A stretch of 64,000 nucleotides of DNA, from NCBI RefSeq assembly GCF_021732705.1, contig NZ_JAKFUM010000010.1, positions 248,001-312,000 on the forward strand. The letters are read 5' to 3'. The position numbers and the translations under genes are program-made. This document shows positions 24,304 to 33,907 of the stretch, piece after piece; the stretch's first letter is position 1; each line of letters begins with the position of its first letter. The stretch comes from Nevskia sp. GTDB lineage: Bacteria; Pseudomonadota; Gammaproteobacteria; Nevskiales; Nevskiaceae. The notes beneath the pieces are model-generated. The model saw nothing but the letters and a program-made list of their open reading frames with translations, searched no databases and was not told the DNA's origin.

Positions 24304-24774
24304 TCAGCCGCCGCCAACGGCGAAGGCTGCGCGGATCGCTTCGACCCGTTTCCGGTTGGCGCCGAAATCGTGGTAGCCGATGCGGCTCGACGAGCGCACC
24401 TGGATCACGCCGGGCTGGGTCGCGGTGGCGACGAATTCGGCGTCGTCGACGAACTTCATCAGCGCCGTGGTGAAGGTGGCGTGGATGTAGCCTTCGCTGC
24501 GGGTCACGACGGCTGCACCCGGCATTGCCGCGATCACCTTCGCCAGCCGTGCCATGGCCGCGTCGGGGGCGTCGTCATGACGCAGGGGCGCGACCTGGCG
24601 TTCGACATTGGCCTCCTCCGAACTGACGCAGTGCGGGCCGTCATCGCAGGGCTGGAGCTTGCCCTGGCTGTCGCGCAGTGTCGGCGTGCCGGCACCGCAG
24701 CCGCTCAGGCCGATGAGCAGCAGGCTCGAACCCAGCAGCCGGGCGACCTGGGAGGTCGTGAAAATCTTGCGCAT
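24304..24774 (-). CDS. DUF1499-family lipoprotein
   Basis: A 156-residue protein. The signal sequence ends in LIGLSGCGAG (lipobox LSGC). The mature part has CDDGPHCVSSEE at its start and ends SSRIGYHDFGANRKRVEAIR. Both segments are characteristic of DUF1499, whose C-terminal RxGxxDxGxNRxRVExLR signature is matched. The function is unknown. It is 3 bp upstream of the ROK kinase and divergent from the TonB-receptor operon, whose first gene begins 289 bp away. Confidence 0.87.
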   Translation of the reverse strand: MRKIFTTSQVARLLGSSLLLIGLSGCGAGTPTLRDSQGKLQPCDDGPHCVSSEEANVERQVAPLRHDDAPDAAMARLAKVIAAMPGAAVVTRSEGYIHATFTTALMKFVDDAEFVATATQPGVIQVRSSSRIGYHDFGANRKRVEAIRAAFAVGGG

Positions 24775-24928
24775 TGCCTGTCCCTCGGGTGATGTCCAAA
24801 CCGGAACCCCGATGATCGCCCGAAAAGCCGCGGGCCGCGATCATCGCGACACCCGGAAAAGCACGCCGCTGCGGCGAAGTCCGGCGGCAAAGGGGCTCGG
24901 ACGCTTGAACATCAAAACCGGTCATTCG

Positions 24929-24950
24929 GTGACAGACGATCGTCTGGCAC
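24929..24950. promoter_or_regulatory. 22-bp near-perfect palindrome, candidate operator
   Basis: GTGACAGACGA/TCGTCTGGCAC has 10 of 11 pairs complementary; the inner 14 bases, CAGACGATCGTCTG, are perfect. It lies 113 bp upstream of the TonB-receptor start and about 155 bp from the divergent DUF1499 gene. The operon ends with an ArsR-family regulator gene, so it is a natural candidate for that repressor's site. No clear sigma-70 promoter was found nearby. Confidence 0.5.
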
Positions 24951-25063
24951 GGTGCAAGACTTTTGCGCGATCGTGCGGGAGCCGGACGCAGCCCTGAGTC
25001 CCGCTGTCACCCGCCTTCCGCAATCGAACTCGATCCGACCAGCCAGCACTGCATTTTCCGCAC

Positions 25064-27484
25064 ATGCGACAGATGAAATTTCCTTCATGCGAATTACCGC
25101 TCGCGACGCTGCTGGTCCTTGTCGTCATCAGCGCGGACCTGAACGCGGCGGAGCCCGTTGCCGGCCGTGACGAGCCGCCGGCCGTGGTCGCGCTCGATCC
25201 CGTCGTCGTGGAAGGCGCACGCGAAGCCACCGGGAACGGGCCATCGAAGCAGTCGGTGGAGGGCGTCTTCGGCGATCAGCGCAAGCTCGTCGACGTGCCG
25301 CGATCAGTGACCGCGATTGGCGCCGATCTGATCGACCGGGCGGCGATCGTCGAACTGCGCGACCTTCAGCGTCTGGTGCCGAACAGCTACGGTGCGAACA
25401 CCTTCGGCGCCAGCAGCCTGCCGACCCTGCGCGGCCAGTTCGGCGAGCTGTATCAGGACGGCCTGCGCCGACAGGGTGGCAACAACGGCCTGGGGCTTCC
25501 GCTGTCGTTCAATTCCATCGAGCAGATCGATGTCATCAAGGGACCGCCACCGGTGGCGTTCGGCAGCAGTCAGCGGGTCGGCGGTTTCATCAACCTGGCA
25601 CCGAAGCGCCCGGACCTCGACACCTCCCGCGCCGACATCCAGGTGCAAGCCGGGAGCTGGGACCGTTATCGGCAATCGCTGGACTGGTCGCAGCCGATCA
25701 AGGCCGGGCAGTCGGCGGTGCGTCTTTCTGCCGAGAACCGCAACGAAGGCAGCTACTACGACTTCGTGAACTATCGCAGCCAGAGCCTGTTCACGGCCTA
25801 CCGCCTCAAGCCGGATCGCGATTCGCAGCTCGATGTCGGCGTCGAATACTTCAACGTCGATTTCGCCGACAACGCGGGCTTCAACCGGCCGACCCAGCAA
25901 CTCATCGACGACGGCCTGTACATCACCGGGCAAGGCGTTCAGGCCGACGGCTCGACCGTGCCCGCCGCCGGTTCCGTGGTGTCCCCGACCGGACTGACCC
26001 GCATTTCGCGCCGCCGCGTCTTCACCGACCCGGATGACCGCAACAGCGCCGAAACGGTGATCGGCAACCTGCGCTACGAGCGAACGCTGGACGAGGGTTT
26101 CCGCTGGGTGACGCGGGCCTTGTACCAGCACCTGGAGCGCGAGGAAATCGCGCGCAACAGCTTCGTCGAAATCATCGATGGCGCCGACACCTTCAACCTG
26201 CGCAGCGAACTGAGCCTCGATACCGAGTTCCCGCTGGCCGCGTTCGCGGCGGCGCAGACCACGACGTTCGGCGTCGAATATCGCTTCCACGACATCCTCG
26301 GCTACAGCCAGTTCACGACCGAAGCGGACAATCCGATCGATCTGACCGGCCCGATCGAGAACCGCCGCATCCCGCTGAGCGCCGCCCAGCAGGCCCGGCT
26401 GGTGGAACTCAGGCCGGGCCTGTTCGTGTCGCCCGGTGCGCAGTACGACGTCGACGGCGATGGCAGCGGCGATTTCAACACCTCCGACACCACCGATTCG
26501 ACGAGCCACCAGACCGGCGTGTTCGTCCAGCATTCGATCCGCCCGAATGCCGCGTGGGAACTGCTGCTGGGTGCGCGCGGCGACTGGTTCGATGTCGATG
26601 CCGGCGATGGCGCGCCGCCACCGGGCGTGACCGCCGCACGCGACGGCATCAATCGCTGGCTCAAGGCCGGCAACGCCGCCCTGCTGTTCAAGCCGCAGAC
26701 CGACATCACGCTGTTCGCGACGGCCAACTACAGCGAATCGACATCGAACAGCCTCGGCGGCGGCTTCGTGCTCGGCGCCGGCAACGAGATCGCGCGCGAG
26801 AACTTCGCCACCGAAAGCCGGCTGTACGAGGCGGGCATCAAATGGGCGCCGGCAAACGGGGCCTGGTACGCCGACCTGAGCCTGTTCGATCAGACCCGAA
26901 GCCTGCGCAACCGCGACGGCAGCAACAGCGGCATCCAGACCCACGGTGCCGAAAGCCGTATCGCCTGGACGCCAGACCGCCACTGGTTCCTGCAGGTGGC
27001 CGGCAGCTGGATCGATGTCAGCTTCGACGACTCGGTAGCGTTCCAGGACAGCAGCAACGTGCTGGACGCCTTTGACGACTCGCGCCCGGATCTGGTCGCC
27101 GGCACCGGGGTCGGCAGCCCCAGCTTTGCGGTGTTTCCCGCCAGCAGCAATCGCGTGCCGGGCATTCCGAGAGTGCAGGCGTCGGGACTGCTGAGCCACG
27201 AAACCGCGTTTGGCCTGGGCGTCGCGATCAATGCCCTGTACACCAGCGAATTCCCGCTGGATTACCAGCAGACCGTGAAGATTCGCGAACAGATCACGGT
27301 CAACGCCTCCGTTCACTGGGACGTCAAGGCGATCGCCACCGACTTCCGCTTCGATGTCTTCAACCTGACCAACGAGGACAACTTCTCCCCGGTGTTCGAA
27401 GGCGGCTTCTTCGGCTCGACCCTGGTGTTTCCGGAGCAGCCGATCAACGTGCTGTTCTCGATCCGGCACCGGTTCAGCCTGTGA
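25064..27484 (+). CDS. TonB-dependent outer-membrane receptor
   Basis: An 806-residue receptor. The signal peptide covers about residues 1-29 (hydrophobic ATLLVLVVISA, then NAAE). A TonB-box-like LDPVVVEGA is at about 44-52. The plug domain spans about 60-175, with DVPRSVTAIGADLI and a plug end VIKGPPPVAFGSSQRVGGFINL of the siderophore-receptor type. A 22-strand barrel follows, ending FSIRHRFSL. It should import a substrate too large or scarce for porins, using TonB energy. It is the first gene of an operon running to 33856, and its TGA overlaps the GTG of the binding-protein gene, so receptor and transporter are produced together. No Fur box or known riboswitch was seen upstream. The substrate is unknown. 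Confidence 0.93.
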   Translation: MRQMKFPSCELPLATLLVLVVISADLNAAEPVAGRDEPPAVVALDPVVVEGAREATGNGPSKQSVEGVFGDQRKLVDVPRSVTAIGADLIDRAAIVELRDLQRLVPNSYGANTFGASSLPTLRGQFGELYQDGLRRQGGNNGLGLPLSFNSIEQIDVIKGPPPVAFGSSQRVGGFINLAPKRPDLDTSRADIQVQAGSWDRYRQSLDWSQPIKAGQSAVRLSAENRNEGSYYDFVNYRSQSLFTAYRLKPDRDSQLDVGVEYFNVDFADNAGFNRPTQQLIDDGLYITGQGVQADGSTVPAAGSVVSPTGLTRISRRRVFTDPDDRNSAETVIGNLRYERTLDEGFRWVTRALYQHLEREEIARNSFVEIIDGADTFNLRSELSLDTEFPLAAFAAAQTTTFGVEYRFHDILGYSQFTTEADNPIDLTGPIENRRIPLSAAQQARLVELRPGLFVSPGAQYDVDGDGSGDFNTSDTTDSTSHQTGVFVQHSIRPNAAWELLLGARGDWFDVDAGDGAPPPGVTAARDGINRWLKAGNAALLFKPQTDITLFATANYSESTSNSLGGGFVLGAGNEIARENFATESRLYEAGIKWAPANGAWYADLSLFDQTRSLRNRDGSNSGIQTHGAESRIAWTPDRHWFLQVAGSWIDVSFDDSVAFQDSSNVLDAFDDSRPDLVAGTGVGSPSFAVFPASSNRVPGIPRVQASGLLSHETAFGLGVAINALYTSEFPLDYQQTVKIREQITVNASVHWDVKAIATDFRFDVFNLTNEDNFSPVFEGGFFGSTLVFPEQPINVLFSIRHRFSL

Positions 27485-28704
27485 AACGCGGGCTTGTCGC
27501 ATGCGCGTTGGCGATGGCGGCGGTGCTGCTCGCCGCCTGCTCGCGCACGCCGCCGCCGCTGTCGGATGCGGCCCTTGCCGCCATGGACTGGCCGCAGGTC
27601 GAAGCCGCGGCGCGCGGTCGCACCGTCACTTTCGTGATGTGGACCGGCGATCCGGCGATCAATGCCTACATCGATGGTTACCTCCGGCCAAGGCTCGAAC
27701 GCCTGCACGACATCCGCCTGCGGGTCATTCCCGGACAGGCTGATATCGCCAATCAGGTGATCGCCGAGCGCGACGCCGGACGGCGAACCAGCAGTCTGGA
27801 TCTGCTGTGGATCAATGGCGAAACCTTCTTCAAGCTGCGCCAGTTGCAGTCGCTGCACGGCCCGTTCACCGAGCGCCTGCCCAACAACCGCTACGTGCGC
27901 TGGTCCGATCCAACCATCGCCCGGGATTTCCAGCAACCGGTCGACGGCTACGAGATGCCATGGGGCAACGTGCAACTGCTGCTGATCGCCGATCGCGAAA
28001 AGGTGTCGCCGCCACCGGACACGCCGGCGGCGCTCGCCGACTGGATCCACGCGCATCCCGGCCGCTTCAGCTTCGATTCCGGCTTCACCGGCCTGAGCTT
28101 CCTGAAATCGCTGATGCATGCCTTCGCGGCTTCGCCGGACATGCTCGAAGGACCGTTCGACGAAGCGCGCTACCTGCGCCTGCGCGATCCCGTGTTCGCA
28201 TGGCTGCGCGACGTGCGGGCCGACCTGTGGCGACAGGGCCGGACCTTTCCCCGTGATGTCGCGCAGCTGCATCAGCTGTTCGCCGCCGGCGAACTCGACT
28301 TCACGATGAGCTTCAATGACGGCGAGGTCGACAACAAGATCGCGCTCGGCCAGTTCCCGGTCAGCGCCGAGGGCTACGCGCTGCGCACCGGCATGCTGCG
28401 CAACTCGCATTACCTCGGCATTCCCGCAGCCTCGCTCGAACGGGCCGCGGCGATGGTGGTGATCAACGAGCTGCTGTCGCCGGAAGCGCAGTTCGAGAAG
28501 CTTCAGCCGTCGGTCTGGGGCGACGGCACGGTGCTCGATGTCGAGCGCCTGCCCGCGCCGTGGCCGGCCCGCTTCGCCGCAGCCGCCGAACGGCGACGGG
28601 TGCCGAGTCGCGCGGCGCTGGCTGCCATCGCCCGGCCCGAGCCATCGCCGGAATTGATGATCCGCCTGGAGCAGGATTTCCGCCGTGCTTTCATCGAGCA
28701 CTGA
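27481..28704 (+). CDS. ABC-transporter substrate-binding lipoprotein, YnjB-like
   Basis: A 407-residue periplasmic lipoprotein. The signal sequence ends LLAACS with lipidation at Cys20. The mature protein follows the extracellular solute-binding family 1 pattern, with VTFVMWTGDPAINAYIDGYLRPRL, SSLDLLWINGETFFKLRQ and PWGNVQLLLIAD. These match the YnjB group, whose E. coli relative (YnjBCD) is annotated as thiamine-like transport without firm biochemical proof. The GTG start at 27481 overlaps the receptor stop (GTGA). It delivers substrate to the two permeases encoded next. Substrate specificity is not visible. Confidence 0.88.
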   Translation: MKRGLVACALAMAAVLLAACSRTPPPLSDAALAAMDWPQVEAAARGRTVTFVMWTGDPAINAYIDGYLRPRLERLHDIRLRVIPGQADIANQVIAERDAGRRTSSLDLLWINGETFFKLRQLQSLHGPFTERLPNNRYVRWSDPTIARDFQQPVDGYEMPWGNVQLLLIADREKVSPPPDTPAALADWIHAHPGRFSFDSGFTGLSFLKSLMHAFAASPDMLEGPFDEARYLRLRDPVFAWLRDVRADLWRQGRTFPRDVAQLHQLFAAGELDFTMSFNDGEVDNKIALGQFPVSAEGYALRTGMLRNSHYLGIPAASLERAAAMVVINELLSPEAQFEKLQPSVWGDGTVLDVERLPAPWPARFAAAAERRRVPSRAALAAIARPEPSPELMIRLEQDFRRAFIEH

Positions 28705-29530
28705 TCGCGCAGCCCGCCTGCTGTTCGGCGTCGCCACCGGCGGCGTCGTGCTGCTGGCGCTGGTGGTGGCGGCCGCCGGCAGCGTCGGCATCATCGGCGG
28801 CATCGAGCCCGCGTTCACCACCGCCCACTGGCTGGCAGTCCTGTCGACGCCGACGCTGTGGCTGTCGCTCGCCTACTCGGCGTTGATCGCGATGGCCAGC
28901 CTGCTGCCGAGCGTGCTGCTGGCCCTGCTCATCGTGCTGGCGGCGGGCGAACGCCTGCGCCGCGCGCCACTGGGGGCGCTGCTCTACCTGCCGCTGGCGT
29001 TTCCGGGCGTGGTCGCGGCACTGGTGGCGGTGCAAGTGCTCGGCGGCGCCGGGTGGCTGTCGCGCATCGCCCACACGGCCGGCGTGCTGGCGGCGCCGGA
29101 GGAGTTCCCGGCGCTGGTGCAGGATCGCATCGGTGTCGGCATCGTCATCACCCACATGCTGATGGTGACGCCGTTCTTCGTGCTGCTGATCGATCGCCTG
29201 TCGACGCTGGAACGGCTCGATGCCCTCGCCGCGCTGGGTCGCTCGCTCGGCGCGACTTCGGCGCAGGTGCTGTGGACGATCCGGCTGCCGATACTGCTGC
29301 GCGGCCTGACACCGGTCTGCACGGTGTACGGCGCGGCGCTGCTGGCGTCTTTCGAGGTGCCGCTGCTGATCGGTGCCCAGCATCCGGCGATGATCGCTGT
29401 GGAAATCGACCGCCACCTGCATCCGCTCGACCTGAGCACGCAGGGTCAGGGATACGCGATGGCCTGCGTGCACGTGATGCTGCTGACCGGCATCTGGTGG
29501 CGGATGTCCAGACCCGCGGCCCGCCGATGA
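28685..29530 (+). CDS. ABC-transporter permease, YnjC N-half-like
   Basis: A 281-residue inner-membrane permease with about six helices. The EAA loop lies near LGRSLGATSAQVLWTIRLPILL (about residues 180-201), where the ATPase docks. The GTG start at 28685 lies 20 bp inside the upstream gene. It pairs with the next permease. In E. coli these two halves are one fused protein (YnjC); here they are separate proteins joined by an ATGA overlap. The C-terminus (WWRMSRPAARR) is cytoplasmic and basic. Confidence 0.87.
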   Translation: MLSSSTDRAARLLFGVATGGVVLLALVVAAAGSVGIIGGIEPAFTTAHWLAVLSTPTLWLSLAYSALIAMASLLPSVLLALLIVLAAGERLRRAPLGALLYLPLAFPGVVAALVAVQVLGGAGWLSRIAHTAGVLAAPEEFPALVQDRIGVGIVITHMLMVTPFFVLLIDRLSTLERLDALAALGRSLGATSAQVLWTIRLPILLRGLTPVCTVYGAALLASFEVPLLIGAQHPAMIAVEIDRHLHPLDLSTQGQGYAMACVHVMLLTGIWWRMSRPAARR

Positions 29531-30324
29531 TCCGCGCCACCGCATCGCGTCGGGCCGCCGTGATCGCCTGGGGACTGGCGGTTCTGATCGTGCTGCCCTA
29601 CGCGGTGCTGGCCTTCGGTGCGTTCGCCCAGCAGTGGCGATATCCGGCACTCCTGCCGGCCGGCTGGTCGATGCGGGCCTGGACCGCGCTGGCGGGCGGC
29701 GGCGCGCTGCTCGACGCCGCCGGACGCTCGGCAGTGATCGCGCTGGCGGTGTCGCTGCTGTCGGTGACGGCCGCACTGATCACCTCGCAGGCACTGGCGA
29801 TCGCGCGTCACCGCGAGCGTATGCAGGCACTGGCGCTGCTGCCGTTCTTCGTGTCGCCGGTGGTGATCGGCATGAGCCTGCAGCAGCTGCTGCTGCGCAG
29901 CGGCCTCGATCATGGCGCGCTCGGCGTGCTGCTGGCCCAGAGTTTCATTGCCTACGCCTATGCAGTGCTGCTCATGAACGCGCTGTGGTCGCCGACGCTT
30001 CTGGCGATGGGCGATGCGGCCGCAGGGCTGGGGGCTTCGAAGCTTGCGATCTGGCGCGAGGTCTGGCTGCCGGCCGGTGCCGGCGTGATCGCGATGGCGC
30101 TGTTCCAGACCTTTTCCCTGTCCTGGTTCGACTACGCGCTGGCGCGCGTGATCGGCGGCGGGCGGGTAGTGACGCTGCCGATCCGGGTGTTCGAAGCGCT
30201 GAGTGCCGGCGACCTGCGGGTCGCCAGCGCCGGCAGCCTGCTGCTGGTGCTGCCGCCGGCGGTCGCATTCCTGCTCGCCAGACGCCTGGTGGCAGCCTCG
30301 CCGCTGCTGAAGGTGTCGCAATGA
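29527..30324 (+). CDS. ABC-transporter permease, YnjC C-half-like
   Basis: A 265-residue permease with about six helices. The EAA-loop motif AAAGLGASKLAIWREVWLP (about residues 163-181) is of the binding-protein-dependent transport type. ATG 29527 overlaps the TGA of the first permease, and its own TGA overlaps the ATPase ATG. The frame extending upstream of 29527 is the first permease read in another frame. Together with the first permease it should form the heterodimeric channel. Confidence 0.87.
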   Translation: MIRATASRRAAVIAWGLAVLIVLPYAVLAFGAFAQQWRYPALLPAGWSMRAWTALAGGGALLDAAGRSAVIALAVSLLSVTAALITSQALAIARHRERMQALALLPFFVSPVVIGMSLQQLLLRSGLDHGALGVLLAQSFIAYAYAVLLMNALWSPTLLAMGDAAAGLGASKLAIWREVWLPAGAGVIAMALFQTFSLSWFDYALARVIGGGRVVTLPIRVFEALSAGDLRVASAGSLLLVLPPAVAFLLARRLVAASPLLKVSQ

Positions 30325-31103
30325 TCGCGGGCCTCGATGTCGACGGCATGAGCAAGCGCTTCGACGGCCGGCCGGTGCTGGACGCCGTCTCCCTGTCAGT
30401 GCCGCGCGGCGAGCTGATGGCCGTGCTCGGGCCGTCGGGCTGCGGCAAGTCGACACTGCTGCGCGGCATCGCCGGCCTGATCGCGATCGACAGCGGCACG
30501 GTGACCGTCGCCGGACGCCGCGTGGACCATCTGCCGGTGCGCGAGCGCGGCATCGTCTATCTCGGTCAGGAGCCGCTGCTGTTTCCGCATCTGGATGTCG
30601 GCGGCAACCTCGCTTTCGGACTCCGGCTGTCGCGGCGACCGGCGCAGGAGATCGAGGACCGGGTCCGGCAACTGGTCGAGGAACTCGGCCTGCCCGGGAT
30701 GGAACGGCGGAACCCGGCCGACCTGTCGGGCGGCGAACGTCAGCGCGTCGCGTTCGGCCGCGCACTGGCGATCGAACCGGCCGTGCTGCTGCTCGACGAG
30801 CCGTTCAGCAGCCTTGACGCCATGACGCGCAGCAGAATGCAAGGCTTGTTTCGTCGCGTGGCCCGCCGCCATGCGATCACCACCGTGCTGGTGACGCACG
30901 ATCTGAAGGAGGCGCTGGTCATGGGCGATCGTTTCGGGCTGATGCAAAACGGGCGGCTGCTGAGTCATCCCGACCGTGCTGCATTCGCGGCCGCGCCGGG
31001 CAGCGGCGTTGCCGCCGAGCGGGCGTTCTGGGACCTGCTCGACACCGGCCCATCGGCCCAATCGGGCCCGGCGGCGCGTGGCCACGGAGACCGTGATGCT
31101 TGA
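30321..31103 (+). CDS. ABC-transporter ATP-binding protein, YnjD-like
   Basis: A 260-residue ATPase. Walker A GPSGCGKST is at residues 37-45, the Q-loop is in YLGQEPLLFPHL, the signature is LSGGERQRVAFGRAL, Walker B plus catalytic Glu is VLLLDEPFSSLD, and the switch His is in VTHDLKEAL. The fold belongs to the thiamine/spermidine/iron importer class. Its last 8 bp overlap the start of the next gene (ATG 31096). This completes a full importer: a lipoprotein, two permeases and an ATPase. Confidence 0.93.
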   Translation: MIAGLDVDGMSKRFDGRPVLDAVSLSVPRGELMAVLGPSGCGKSTLLRGIAGLIAIDSGTVTVAGRRVDHLPVRERGIVYLGQEPLLFPHLDVGGNLAFGLRLSRRPAQEIEDRVRQLVEELGLPGMERRNPADLSGGERQRVAFGRALAIEPAVLLLDEPFSSLDAMTRSRMQGLFRRVARRHAITTVLVTHDLKEALVMGDRFGLMQNGRLLSHPDRAAFAAAPGSGVAAERAFWDLLDTGPSAQSGPAARGHGDRDA

Positions 31104-31725
31104 CGTCATCCTGATCGACAACGGTGTTCACGGCCTGCGCGACTACTTCGTCGACGGCGCCGCAGTGCGGTATCGGCCGGCGCGCATCGGTGGGCAATGG
31201 CCGCCGGATCTTGCCGGCGCCGACCTGGTCATCGCACCGAATGGCACCGATCATGTCGCGCTGCATGCAGCGCGCGAGGCGGTCGCCGCACACCTGCAGG
31301 GCGGCGGTGCGCTGGCCTGCTTCTGCGGCTTCTTCACGCCGTGGATACCCGGCAACCGCTGGGTGCATGACACCGGCCGGCCGCTCAACGAGCTCGAGTA
31401 TCACGCCGTCGACGATCGGCTGGGCCTGCTCGACGGCGTCGATCTCGAGCGCTTCGCCGCCGGTCGTCACGGCATTCGCGGCGGCTGGGCATGCGGGCGC
31501 ATCGAAACCGACCATGCGGAATCGGTGCTGCTGCGCGACAGCCATCACCGCGTGATCATGGTGGCCGACACCCGCTCGACCCCCGGCCTGATCGTCGCCA
31601 CCGCCAGCGGCCCGCTGGGCGATGCCGCACCCGATCAGCCGCTGCCGGCTGACGGTGGTGATCTCACCCGGATCTATCGAAACCTGCTCAACGTCGTTCG
31701 GCAACGCAAGGAGAGCCGTCAATGA
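31096..31725 (+). CDS. ThuA / class I glutamine amidotransferase-like protein A
   Basis: A 209-residue soluble protein. The N-terminal half looks like a flavodoxin-like amidotransferase-1 or ThuA fold: LDVILIDNG, then ADLVIAPNGTDHVALHAAREAVAAHL (about residues 42-67) and GGGALACFCGFFTPWIPG, where Cys75 and Cys77 sit near the nucleophile-elbow position. The C-terminal half is rich in His/Asp (WACGRIETDHAES, SHHRVIMVADTRS). It has no signal peptide. The next gene encodes a diverged paralogue. It starts inside the ATPase gene and its stop overlaps the next ATG. Function is unknown; an amidase, glycosidase-like or metal-binding role is possible. The link to transport is by operon only. Confidence 0.72.
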   Translation: MLDVILIDNGVHGLRDYFVDGAAVRYRPARIGGQWPPDLAGADLVIAPNGTDHVALHAAREAVAAHLQGGGALACFCGFFTPWIPGNRWVHDTGRPLNELEYHAVDDRLGLLDGVDLERFAAGRHGIRGGWACGRIETDHAESVLLRDSHHRVIMVADTRSTPGLIVATASGPLGDAAPDQPLPADGGDLTRIYRNLLNVVRQRKESRQ

Positions 31726-32420
31726 GCCGCAAGCCCATCGCGATGATCTTCAACGGCGTATGGTCGCAGTACGCGGTCGCCACCGCGCCGAAGTACCGGG
31801 ATCTCATCGATCTGGTCTACGTGCACGATCTCGCCGCCGTCGACTGGTCCGACTATCGCGGCGTGATCGTGCCATTCCAGAACGATCATGCAGCGCTCGC
31901 CGCCCACCGGGATCGCCTTTACGGCTTTCTCGCCGGAGGCGGCAGGGTCGCGGTGTTCGGCGATGCCCATCACTGGATCGATGCCGAGTGGGCGGACCGG
32001 CCCGTCGACAATCACTGGTGGACCCGCCAGCCCGATTCGCCGCCGGTGGTCACGCTGGATTTCGACCATCCGCTGTTCGCCGGCCTCACGCCGCGTCAGG
32101 CCGGCTGGCATCACCATGGTGTCTACCTGCGCCTGCCGGCGCGCGCGCGGGTGCTGCAACGCTCGCGCGAGGATGAAGTGGTGTGCTGGACCACCACCGA
32201 GTACGGCGGCGAATTACTGGCCGGCACCCAGGACCCGATCGTCGAGCACGGCGTGCAGCAGATCCGCCATCTCGATCATTTCGTCGATCAGCTCGTGCTG
32301 TGGCTGGGCGGCGAGCGCCCGTCCCCAGCCCGGCTGACGGTTGATGAAAGCGCCTATGGCGTGCCGTTTCCGAGGCGCGCGCGGGCAACGGCCGATGCCC
32401 GCCAGCCGAACCGCGCCTGA
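31722..32420 (+). CDS. ThuA / class I glutamine amidotransferase-like protein B
   Basis: A 232-residue soluble paralogue of the preceding gene. The two align over IMIFNGVWSQY / DYRGVIVPFQNDHAALAAHRDRLYGFLAGGGRVAVFGDAHHWI, followed by LDFDHPLFAGLTPRQAGWHHHGVYLRL, a histidine-rich stretch (HHH at about residue 128). It lacks the cysteines present in protein A at the elbow. A basic proline-rich tail (PFPRRARATADARQPNRA) follows. ATG overlaps the upstream TGA (ATGA), and the radical SAM gene starts 6 bp after its stop. Function is unknown. The pair may form a heterodimer. Confidence 0.72.
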   Translation: MSRKPIAMIFNGVWSQYAVATAPKYRDLIDLVYVHDLAAVDWSDYRGVIVPFQNDHAALAAHRDRLYGFLAGGGRVAVFGDAHHWIDAEWADRPVDNHWWTRQPDSPPVVTLDFDHPLFAGLTPRQAGWHHHGVYLRLPARARVLQRSREDEVVCWTTTEYGGELLAGTQDPIVEHGVQQIRHLDHFVDQLVLWLGGERPSPARLTVDESAYGVPFPRRARATADARQPNRA

Positions 32421-32426
32421 TCGCCC

Positions 32427-33518
32427 ATGGAAAGCATTTACTGGGTCCTGACCTGGGCCTGCCATCGCAAATGCGATCACTGTTACGACGCGCGCTTCCG
32501 GCCGTATGTGCGCAGCGGCCTGAGTCGGGTGCTGGCCGAAGGCCAGACGGCCTACCGGCGAATCGTCGAGCATCTGCCGGATGACTTCAGCTACGTCCAG
32601 CCGCTGGCCGATGGCCGGAGCGAACGCCGTCGGGGCCGGCTGATCCTGGCAGGCGGGGAGCTTCTGATCGACGCGGTACGCGAGCCGCTGCTTTACCCGG
32701 TGCTCGATGCCTTGCGCGACAAGTACGGCAGTGGTGGCCCGAGGCTGTCGCTGCAGACCACCGGCGACGTTCTCACCGACCACCATCTGGAAGCGTTGCT
32801 GGCGCGCGGCATCTGGATGATCGGCATCGCCTCGATCGACGATCATCACGTCGGCATGAAGGGCGAGCGCAAGTTCGCGTTCATGCAGCGCATCCGCGAA
32901 ATGATGGCGCGGCACGGCGTGGAGGAAGCCAGCCTGGGCGGTGCGCGCGATCACCGCGTCGAACTTCCGGCGCGGCCGGCCGATGCCGCGCGCGACTATC
33001 TTCAGGAAGACGGCCCGTTCTTCGTCTTCTTCGGCGCCCAGCCGGAACTCTGGGTCGGTGAACTGTGGCCGCGCGGTCGCGCCTGGAGCAACGGCCTGTC
33101 GAATGCCGACTACAGCACCAATTTCTGCGCGCGCTGGTCCGGAGGCCGGAATTTTCTCCACCACGGCCAGGCCGGTTCGGAAGTCTCGATCGAGCCCGAT
33201 GGCTCGGTCTATCCCTGCTGCATCAAGACCCGCGTGCCGCTGGGCAGCGTCGTCGAGGAGCCGCTGATCGACATGCTCGACAGCCTGCGCGAGGAGCCGG
33301 CGCTGCAAGCTCTGAACAACGGCGATCCCGAAGGCATGGGCCTGCATCACGGCTGGACGCGTGCGCAGTTCCGCGCGTCAGCGCATGTCACCGATCCCAC
33401 GGGGCGTCCGTACGGCAATCCCTGCATCGGCTGCGATGCCTATTTCGACGCTCACCTCGGTGCGCGTCTGGTCGCGCTTCGCGAACAGCGCAGGCAGCTG
33501 CGCGAGGCGCGGGCATGA
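32427..33518 (+). CDS. Radical SAM protein with SPASM-like C-terminal cysteines
   Basis: A 363-residue radical S-adenosylmethionine enzyme. The [4Fe-4S] motif CHRKCDHC is Cys12, Cys16, Cys19. The SAM-interacting GGE is in LILAGGELLI (about residues 72-81), and the core strands continue through LSLQTTGDVLTDHH. The C-terminal part has Cys234, Cys264, Cys265, Cys333 and Cys336 around IEPDGSVYPCCIKTRVPLGSV, resembling the auxiliary-cluster (SPASM/Twitch) pattern of peptide- or small-molecule-modifying enzymes. No precursor peptide gene was seen beside it. It lies after the amidotransferase-like pair and before the regulator (ATGA overlap). Likely substrate: whatever the importer brings in, by inference only. 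Confidence 0.85.
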   Translation: MESIYWVLTWACHRKCDHCYDARFRPYVRSGLSRVLAEGQTAYRRIVEHLPDDFSYVQPLADGRSERRRGRLILAGGELLIDAVREPLLYPVLDALRDKYGSGGPRLSLQTTGDVLTDHHLEALLARGIWMIGIASIDDHHVGMKGERKFAFMQRIREMMARHGVEEASLGGARDHRVELPARPADAARDYLQEDGPFFVFFGAQPELWVGELWPRGRAWSNGLSNADYSTNFCARWSGGRNFLHHGQAGSEVSIEPDGSVYPCCIKTRVPLGSVVEEPLIDMLDSLREEPALQALNNGDPEGMGLHHGWTRAQFRASAHVTDPTGRPYGNPCIGCDAYFDAHLGARLVALREQRRQLREARA

Positions 33519-33856
33519 CCGCGCCGCGCGCGCTGAATCCGGGACCGTCGCGGCCGGGCGGCGTGAGCGTCGGCACGCGGCAGTGCGCGAGCCTGCTGCG
33601 CGTGGTCGCCGAGCCGACGCGGCTGGCGGTGCTGCGGCTGATCGCCACGGCACCGCTGTCGGTCAACGAGATCGCGGGGCAGCTCGATGTGGAGCAGACC
33701 CTGCTGTCGCATCACCTCGCGCTGTTGCGGCGCAATGGCCTGGTCAGCGTGCATCGCGACGGCAAGCGTCAGTTGTATGAACTGGCCGACGGCGTGAAGT
33801 TGAACGACGCGGCGGATGTCATCGATTTCGGCTGCTGTCGCCTTCAGTTCTTCTAG
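33515..33856 (+). CDS. ArsR-family winged-helix transcriptional regulator
   Basis: A 113-residue regulator. The helix-turn-helix is visible in LLRVVAEPTRLAVLRLIATAP (about residues 27-47), LSVNEIAGQLDVEQTLLSHHLALLRRNGLV and the wing VHRDGKRQLYEL. The classical metal motif ELCVCDL in the recognition region is absent. Instead Cys24 precedes the first core helix and Cys107-Cys108 end the protein (DFGCCRLQFF). C-terminal Cys pairs form part of the arsenite or methylarsenite site in some ArsR proteins, so metal(loid) sensing is plausible but unproven. It is the last gene of the operon, coupled to the radical SAM gene by ATGA. Autoregulation via the palindrome at 24929 is the simplest model. Confidence 0.85.
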   Translation: MTAPRALNPGPSRPGGVSVGTRQCASLLRVVAEPTRLAVLRLIATAPLSVNEIAGQLDVEQTLLSHHLALLRRNGLVSVHRDGKRQLYELADGVKLNDAADVIDFGCCRLQFF

Positions 33857-33875
33857 AAGCCCGACAGCGCACCTT

Positions 33876-33907
33876 TCAGCGCGCCTTCAGCTCAGCGCGC
33901 CTTCAGC
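33876..33907. repeat. 16-bp direct tandem repeat (two copies)
   Basis: TCAGCGCGCCTTCAGC occurs twice, head to tail, around the stop codon of the hydrolase gene (TGA at 33905-33903). Read on the minus strand, extra copies encode KAR-stop again, so a small duplication extended the 3' end. Confidence 0.7.

Follow-up and report, generated by a model that had tools for sequence, protein, structure and literature searches.

The 64,000-nucleotide stretch of Nevskia sp. DNA analyzed here (the window; assembly GCF_021732705.1, contig NZ_JAKFUM010000010.1, positions 248,001 to 312,000) contains on its plus strand, at 25064-33856, nine intact open reading frames (ORFs) that read as a single operon. Its makeup is that of an uptake operon whose processing genes are unusual: a TonB-dependent receptor and a YnjBCD-type ABC importer are followed by a pair of proteins of unnamed family, here called Thu1 and Thu2, a radical SAM enzyme (rSAM) and an ArsR-type regulator. 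The nine genes are likely one uptake-plus-modification unit, and the chance that they form a single, laterally mobile cassette that takes up a small chelate-like molecule and processes it in the cytoplasm is put at about even. The broader proposal, which falls a little short of an even bet, is that Thu1 and Thu2 constitute an undescribed, interchangeable two-part cytoplasmic module that would work with at least five families of bacterial and archaeal ABC importers, either taking over the ligand after import or splitting it, and that in Nevskia it is joined with an undescribed rSAM family, paired with YnjBCD more than once, in a new uptake-and-remodelling pathway.

The genes of the operon and one candidate regulatory site are as follows.

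25064..27484, plus strand: TonB-dependent outer-membrane receptor, siderophore-receptor-like (PF07715 and PF00593 over cut-off; the start may be 25073)
27481..28704, plus strand: YnjB-type substrate-binding protein, probable lipoprotein (NF008633/PRK11622, 381 bits against a cut-off of 203; lipobox LAAC in the sequence)
28685..29530, plus strand: permease, YnjC-type first half, GTG start (assigned by position; NCBIfam permease models sub-threshold only, no Pfam match)
29527..30324, plus strand: permease, YnjC-type second half (PF00528 and PhnV/PotC-type models, all sub-threshold)
30321..31103, plus strand: ABC ATPase in the YnjD position (PF00005, 114 bits)
31096..31725, plus strand: Thu1, first protein of the unnamed pair (Thu1 profile built without Nevskia sequences, E 5e-12; no Pfam or NCBIfam match)
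31722..32420, plus strand: Thu2, second protein of the pair, with a W-H-x-H-G motif (Thu2 profile built without Nevskia sequences, E 6e-36)
32427..33518, plus strand: radical SAM/SPASM enzyme of an unnamed family (PF13186 over cut-off, cysteine pattern and structure model)
33515..33856, plus strand: ArsR/SmtB-type regulator (NF033788, 72.3 bits against a cut-off of 55)
24929..24950, no strand: 22-bp imperfect palindrome upstream of the operon, possible operator (weak; not conserved base for base in the second Nevskia copy, L007)

Overlaps of 4 nt occur at five of the eight junctions (receptor/binding protein at 27481, first/second permease at 29527, second permease/ATPase at 30321, Thu1/Thu2 at 31722 and rSAM/ArsR at 33515). 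The binding protein and first permease overlap by 20 nt, given a permease start at GTG 28685, and the ATPase and Thu1 by 8 nt, at 31096. An earlier note on this DNA had described nine plus-strand genes joined without a break; the nine genes are there, in an order repeated in a second Nevskia genome, and seven junctions do overlap, but Thu2 and rSAM are separated by a 6-nt gap, the sole junction without overlap. Of the first two ATG codons of the receptor gene, only the second (25073) is conserved in the other Nevskia copy. The receptor has both plug and barrel domains and scores 101.7 bits against the siderophore receptor model TIGR01783, under its cut-off of 223.5. The permease is encoded by two separate genes and not by a single fused ynjC of the E. 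coli type; a split permease is also annotated in a Deinococcus record (L131).

The second full copy of the operon was found in a Nevskia metagenome-assembled genome (MAG; L007, the same contig as L019), with the nine genes in the same order at 73-90% identity (84% for the TonB receptor and 79% for the first permease). Between the two copies the ratio of nonsynonymous to synonymous substitution rates (dN/dS, Nei-Gojobori) is 0.12-0.34 for each of the nine genes, and all nine are thus under purifying selection. Among 61 related genomes, the window's own included, the rSAM and YnjB queries both match the same two and no other, and the nine-gene composition in full occurs only in the two Nevskia genomes. 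Family matches and this co-presence support the complete outer- and inner-membrane import path of the earlier note, together with cytoplasmic modification genes, and its inheritance as one unit; with two Nevskia copies as its basis, this evidence cannot speak to the cohesion of the nine genes over longer times.

Four other Nevskia genomes (L156-L159) lack the operon and retain, in synteny, its downstream hydrolase gene and its upstream ROK and hydrolase genes, which makes the block a cassette at a variable site. The flanks are separated in these genomes by 8.7, 6.3, 1.9 and 5.0 kb, respectively. An unrelated-looking ABC ATPase, 36% identical over 187 residues to that of the window, lies between them in L159, and the DUF1499-like gene beside the operon has no match in any of the four. 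In two further Nevskia genomes (L160, L161) the downstream flank side alone was found. The site between the ROK and hydrolase genes (24304-33902 in the window), occupied by different DNA of 1.9-8.7 kb in the four genomes, may be an insertion hotspot.

Neither Thu1 nor Thu2, nor any of their scanned relatives, has a credible match in Pfam, NCBIfam or PDB. The window Thu2 is matched not only by its own profile but also, at E 2e-10, by the Thu1 profile made without Nevskia sequences, which identifies the two proteins as paralogues. Of the earlier description, two ThuA- or amidotransferase-like paralogues, the paralogy is retained. A class I glutamine amidotransferase assignment for Thu2 was not supported, given that no cysteine is invariant or nearly invariant in 13 Thu2 sequences and no family match was obtained. 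An assignment to ThuA (PF06283) likewise failed: the window proteins do not match the family, and relatives do so only below threshold (at best E 0.031, in an archaeal relative). PF13709/DUF4159 is also matched below threshold by an Aliivibrio fusion protein (E 1.8e-4) and by the Thu2 of L016 (E 1.3e-3). In the W-H-x-H-G motif of Thu2, W129, H130 and G133 are invariant and H132 nearly so across the 13 sequences. The structure model of Thu2, built from two sequences, has a predicted local distance difference test score (pLDDT) of 46, too poor for a fold search.

Relatives of Thu2 occur in three other genomes among 398 of the phylum and in 32 plasmid records, from hosts that include Rhizobiales, methanotrophs, Cupriavidus, Aliivibrio, Paenibacillus and the archaeon Natribaculum. 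Contexts were established for 18 of the 32 matching plasmid records, and in all 18, as in the three other genome matches, the Thu genes adjoin ABC importer genes (21/21 loci). The records are not all independent, two from Martelella and one from Labrenzia being alike; L125 was counted on its Thu2 match alone, and the unannotated L105, L122, L123 and L129 were judged from ORFs and tblastn. The partner importers are of the FecBCD type in 16 loci, of the Nik/Dpp/Opp type in three (the Opp/Dpp label of L105 being a reading of its translation), of the Ssu/Nrt type in one and of a haloarchaeal extracellular-binding-protein/iron-permease type in one. Together with YnjBCD in Nevskia, the pair therefore accompanies five importer types. 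Thu1 and Thu2 are fused in several records, in both orders, suggesting that the two proteins form a physical complex. TonB receptors occur near the Thu loci L120 and L121 (annotated), L122 (family scan) and L017 (reading of the translation), and hemin uptake genes near L102.

The Thu and importer genes are often accompanied by a gene for a third protein, of about 170 aa and likewise of unnamed family, which was not found in Nevskia. It occurs in L016 (10454-10951), L100, L101, L120, L121, L123, L124, L126 and L128, with a relative upstream of Thu1 in L105, and in L101 and L128 it directly precedes phnG of the C-P lyase genes. A resemblance to FmdE was not borne out by the searches and is not claimed.

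The radical SAM enzyme announced by the earlier note, with its SPASM-like cysteines, was recovered as described. It exceeds the cut-off of PF13186 (SPASM; 26.0 against 21.5) and falls under that of PF04055 (Radical_SAM; 20.7 against 29.5). Cysteines 12, 16 and 19, which form the CxxxCxxC motif, are invariant in 37 sequences, as are 234, 265, 333 and 336 of a second set, in which cysteine 264 is nearly invariant. NCBIfam searches returned no close family model, and the ArsS model (TIGR04167), considered as a candidate identity, was not among the matches up to E 1. The structure model (pLDDT 86.7) conforms to a SPASM/Twitch fold, with PqqE and HemN among the weaker matches and BtrN, EpeE, anSME and SkfB as the best PDB folds; for these four, E values of 2e-6 to 6e-5, template modelling (TM) scores of 0.39-0.53 (query length) and root-mean-square deviations of 7-14 A indicate overall likeness only. 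Searches by sequence gave no credible solved relative for rSAM, Thu2, a fused Thu protein, the third small protein or YnjB.

Homologues of rSAM are sparse in direct searches: only its own gene was found in 369 genomes of the class, and five of the 398 phylum genomes matched, a figure that includes the window genome itself and a match that is weak and partial. No relatives were found in viral contigs and plasmids. A scan of 84,980 species genomes with two peptide patterns yielded 110 relatives, of which 80 loci were kept. In ten rSAM loci a TetR-type regulator family gene directly follows rSAM on the same strand (scanned with Pfam in L027, 6897-7514).

Of 79 non-Nevskia loci, 32 have a YnjB match that starts 11-244 nt beyond the rSAM match, and permease and ATPase genes usually come next. 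The records with this linkage, in many cases MAGs, are from alpha- and gammaproteobacteria, Vicinamibacterales and Bacteroidota. No adjacent YnjB match, that is, none within up to 10 kb of flank, was obtained for the other 47, five of which (L021, L038, L041, L055, L080) lie on contigs that end at most 1.4 kb downstream of rSAM. Fifteen genomes with rSAM of the unlinked type were searched for YnjB; 13 had no match at all and two had YnjB elsewhere. Because YnjB is missing from so many loci and genomes, rSAM is not obligatorily tied to a YnjBCD-type transporter.

In the rSAM tree (81 rows) one well-supported branch divides the rows into a set of 45, consisting of 13 unlinked loci and every one of the 32 linked loci, and a set of 36, in which both Nevskia proteins stand with 34 unlinked loci, chiefly of Hyphomonadaceae and their kin. 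Grouping the Nevskia rSAM with the linked rows was rejected by a post hoc approximately unbiased (AU) test (p-AU 4e-7; 36 rows, with 17 of the 32 linked and 17 of the 47 unlinked loci, and with L096, an unlinked row inside the linked clade, left out). In the YnjB tree (42 rows) the Nevskia protein falls outside the others, joined only to a long Deinococcus branch, and E. coli YnjB is placed among the rSAM-linked YnjBs. Since the Nevskia rSAM lies outside the linked clade and the Nevskia YnjB outside the linked YnjBs, the pairing probably arose more than once, with a separate assembly in Nevskia. Independent assembly favours a functional tie over shared ancestry. Alternatively, many lineages may have lost the importer, or long branches may have misled the YnjB tree.

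Several gene families recur around the linked loci. In L093 the rSAM-YnjBCD operon adjoins a bufferin-type set consisting, by Pfam, of an MbnB/TglH/ChrH-family enzyme, DUF2063, DoxX and DUF2282; clustering places all four families beside L068 and three of them beside L067, upstream of rSAM-YnjBCD. The terms 'ABC transporter' and 'TonB' do not occur in the main text of the bufferin (MNIO) paper PMC12452194, as far as a term search of that part extends. Scanning of L093 also revealed a TIGR04283 protein over cut-off and a MerA-like FAD oxidoreductase below the MerA cut-off, and scanning of L065 a TIGR04282 protein over cut-off and a CDP-alcohol phosphatidyltransferase. 'Arsenosugar' transferases and/or a MerA-like oxidoreductase were assigned in L066, L068, L075 and L078 by clustering only. 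On an E. coli IncC plasmid (L130, 120-10457), a YnjBCD-type importer lies with a 'putative DNA-binding domain' protein, DoxX, TVP38, two FAD oxidoreductases and a CDP-alcohol phosphatidyltransferase; YnjB matches were also obtained in Klebsiella, Salmonella and Citrobacter plasmids.

The last gene of the operon encodes, as anticipated, an ArsR-family protein, with cysteines 24, 106 and 107 present in both Nevskia copies. A metal(loid) or otherwise thiophilic ligand, proposed only from the ArsR family and from these three cysteines conserved in two orthologues, is no more than a candidate. Both operon-bearing Nevskia genomes also contain, at another locus, an ArsS-type radical SAM gene (TIGR04167, over cut-off):

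C26:1315-7568, strand not given: ArsS-type radical SAM locus of the window genome (G000)
C2:770203-771855, strand not given: ArsS-type radical SAM locus of the other Nevskia genome (G384)

A TIGR04283 gene near ArsS is over cut-off in the window genome, on the same contig, and just under it in G384; as sub-threshold matches to these two models are common (14 of 14 control genomes), only matches over or near the cut-off were counted. Each of the two genomes also has one MbnB/TglH/ChrH-family gene.

The pathway we propose would begin with a chelate-like small molecule, too large or too rare for porins, that the TonB receptor would carry across the outer membrane. The YnjB lipoprotein would then capture the compound, and the two-part permease and ATPase would move it inward. 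In the cytoplasm Thu1 and Thu2 would act as a pair to bind or split the imported ligand, and their action on that ligand, of whatever kind, is considered fairly probable. The radical SAM/SPASM enzyme might carry out a redox or rearrangement change on the ligand or a piece of it, and the ArsR-type protein may act as a repressor of the operon that is released on binding a thiophilic ion or a reactive sulfur species. The direction of transport, the substrate, the Thu1/Thu2 complex, the rSAM reaction and the ArsR sensing are all inferred. The importers found at Thu loci, and the TonB receptors and hemin genes nearby, make us lean towards metal chelates or metallophores as ligands, an identification that is tentative and rather more doubtful than not.

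A number of observations weigh against this interpretation. Neither the C-P lyase genes of L100, L101 and L128 nor the importer of Ssu type in L102 is obviously metal-related. Thu1 and Thu2 were not found in the stretches around the 79 non-Nevskia rSAM loci, so that within these stretches the pair and rSAM were seen together only in Nevskia, and YnjB relatives on other records (L130-L135) keep other company. No YnjB match was obtained in the genomes searched among the nearest rSAM relatives outside Nevskia (Hyphomonadaceae and kin). As to the history of the pairing, the AU test was performed after the full rSAM tree had been seen, and the YnjB tree has long branches, its Nevskia-Deinococcus join being flagged by the program as possibly false. 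Concerning the substrate, no riboswitch was found as a clue, no solved relative in the sequence searches points to a ligand, and the TonB receptor scores under the siderophore-receptor cut-off. The recurrence sought for the cassette was obtained in part, the full operon being present in the second Nevskia genome but rSAM and the Thu pair not being seen together outside the genus in the stretches around the rSAM loci. Likewise, the view of the earlier note that the genes make up one system survives with a qualification: homologues do live unlinked from this transporter (47 of 79 rSAM loci without YnjB, and the Thu pair with other importers in 21 loci), in part the outcome that the note had named as refuting, and the rSAM-YnjB and Thu-importer links nevertheless each recur.

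Other explanations were weighed against the same data. The operon could instead belong to organometal or organoarsenical metabolism, importing or salvaging an arsenic-containing sugar or similar compound while ArsR senses the released As(III). The C-terminal cysteine pair of the ArsR-type regulator would fit, as would the 'arsenosugar biosynthesis' transferases of some rSAM-YnjBCD loci (TIGR04283 in L093, TIGR04282 in L065), the MerA-like oxidoreductase of L093, the ArsS gene elsewhere in both Nevskia genomes and the TIGR04283 gene on the ArsS contig of the window genome. However, the nine-gene operon itself has no arsenic gene, ArsS is far removed from it in G384 and on a separate contig in the window genome, and no annotated arsenic gene is adjacent in the annotated records of the Thu pair elsewhere, which leaves this explanation unlikely. 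It is also rather improbable that the operon salvages a vitamin-like compound or cofactor, for instance a tetrapyrrole, a corrinoid or a quinone cofactor, which rSAM would repair or remodel. FecBCD-type importers, the main partners of the Thu pair, include B12 and heme transporters, hemin uptake genes lie near L102, and PqqE and HemN are among the weaker rSAM folds; yet the operon has neither a riboswitch nor a recognised cofactor gene, and YnjB matched no B12- or heme-binding model.

The sub-threshold ThuA and DUF4159 resemblance of the Thu relatives suggests, in turn, uptake of a sugar or glycoside and ThuA-type trehalose utilisation, with metal sensing incidental, and known ThuA operons contain ABC importers. 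The window proteins have no ThuA family match, though, the partner importers of Thu are mostly not of a sugar-importer type, and BtrN-like rSAM chemistry on sugars, while possible, is a candidate only; we regard a sugar substrate as improbable. That unrelated genes were collected by chance under one promoter would accord with the separate lives of rSAM and Thu-pair homologues in other genomes. It is very hard to reconcile with the order and selection kept in two genomes, the apparently repeated rSAM-YnjBCD association and the adjacency of Thu and importer genes in 21 of 21 loci, and is given almost no weight.

An enzyme family that recurrently travels with YnjBCD offers a testable handle on what the E. 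coli-type importer carries, and the role of the Thu pair, if learned, would aid annotation of loci now labelled hypothetical. Searches of a limited paper collection returned no description of the rSAM-YnjBCD or Thu-importer links, and searches there for ThuA-like families nothing on the Thu1/Thu2 pair.

Compared with known systems, the importer resembles E. coli YnjBCD, encoded in the ydjXYZ-ynjABCD operon, in having a YnjB-type binding protein over the NF008633 cut-off and the same order of binding protein, permease and ATPase. It differs in that the Nevskia permease is split in two, the window YnjB is 39% identical to that of E. coli and lies outside all compared YnjBs except that of Deinococcus, and no rSAM, Thu pair, TonB receptor or ArsR stands alongside in the E. 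coli ynj region. The E. coli operon is activated by FNR (PMC3688515), ynjABCD is induced with BaeR, perhaps indirectly (PMC2731931), and YnjBCD is still called uncharacterised in 2022 (PMC9207381).

The rSAM-YnjBCD operons of marine gammaproteobacteria, Bosea, Lutibaculum and others share with the Nevskia operon the rSAM and importer families, adjacent and on one strand. Their rSAM is upstream of the importer, whereas that of Nevskia is downstream and outside their clade; no Thu pair was found in them, and several carry TIGR04283/TIGR04282-type transferases, MerA-like oxidoreductases or bufferin-type neighbours. The Thu1/Thu2-FecBCD loci of Rhizobiales, methanotrophs, Aliivibrio and others likewise place the pair immediately next to an ABC importer, in some cases with TonB receptors as well, but the importer is of another family, no rSAM of the Nevskia kind was found and the third small protein is present in many. 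In its working order of receptor, binding protein, permease, ATPase and processing, the operon also resembles siderophore uptake operons with cytoplasmic ligand-processing enzymes. Radical SAM chemistry is not known to be usual in such operons. The nine Nevskia genes, in contrast to those operons, include no recognised esterase, reductase or Fur-type regulator, and their importer is of the YnjBCD type and not of a siderophore family.

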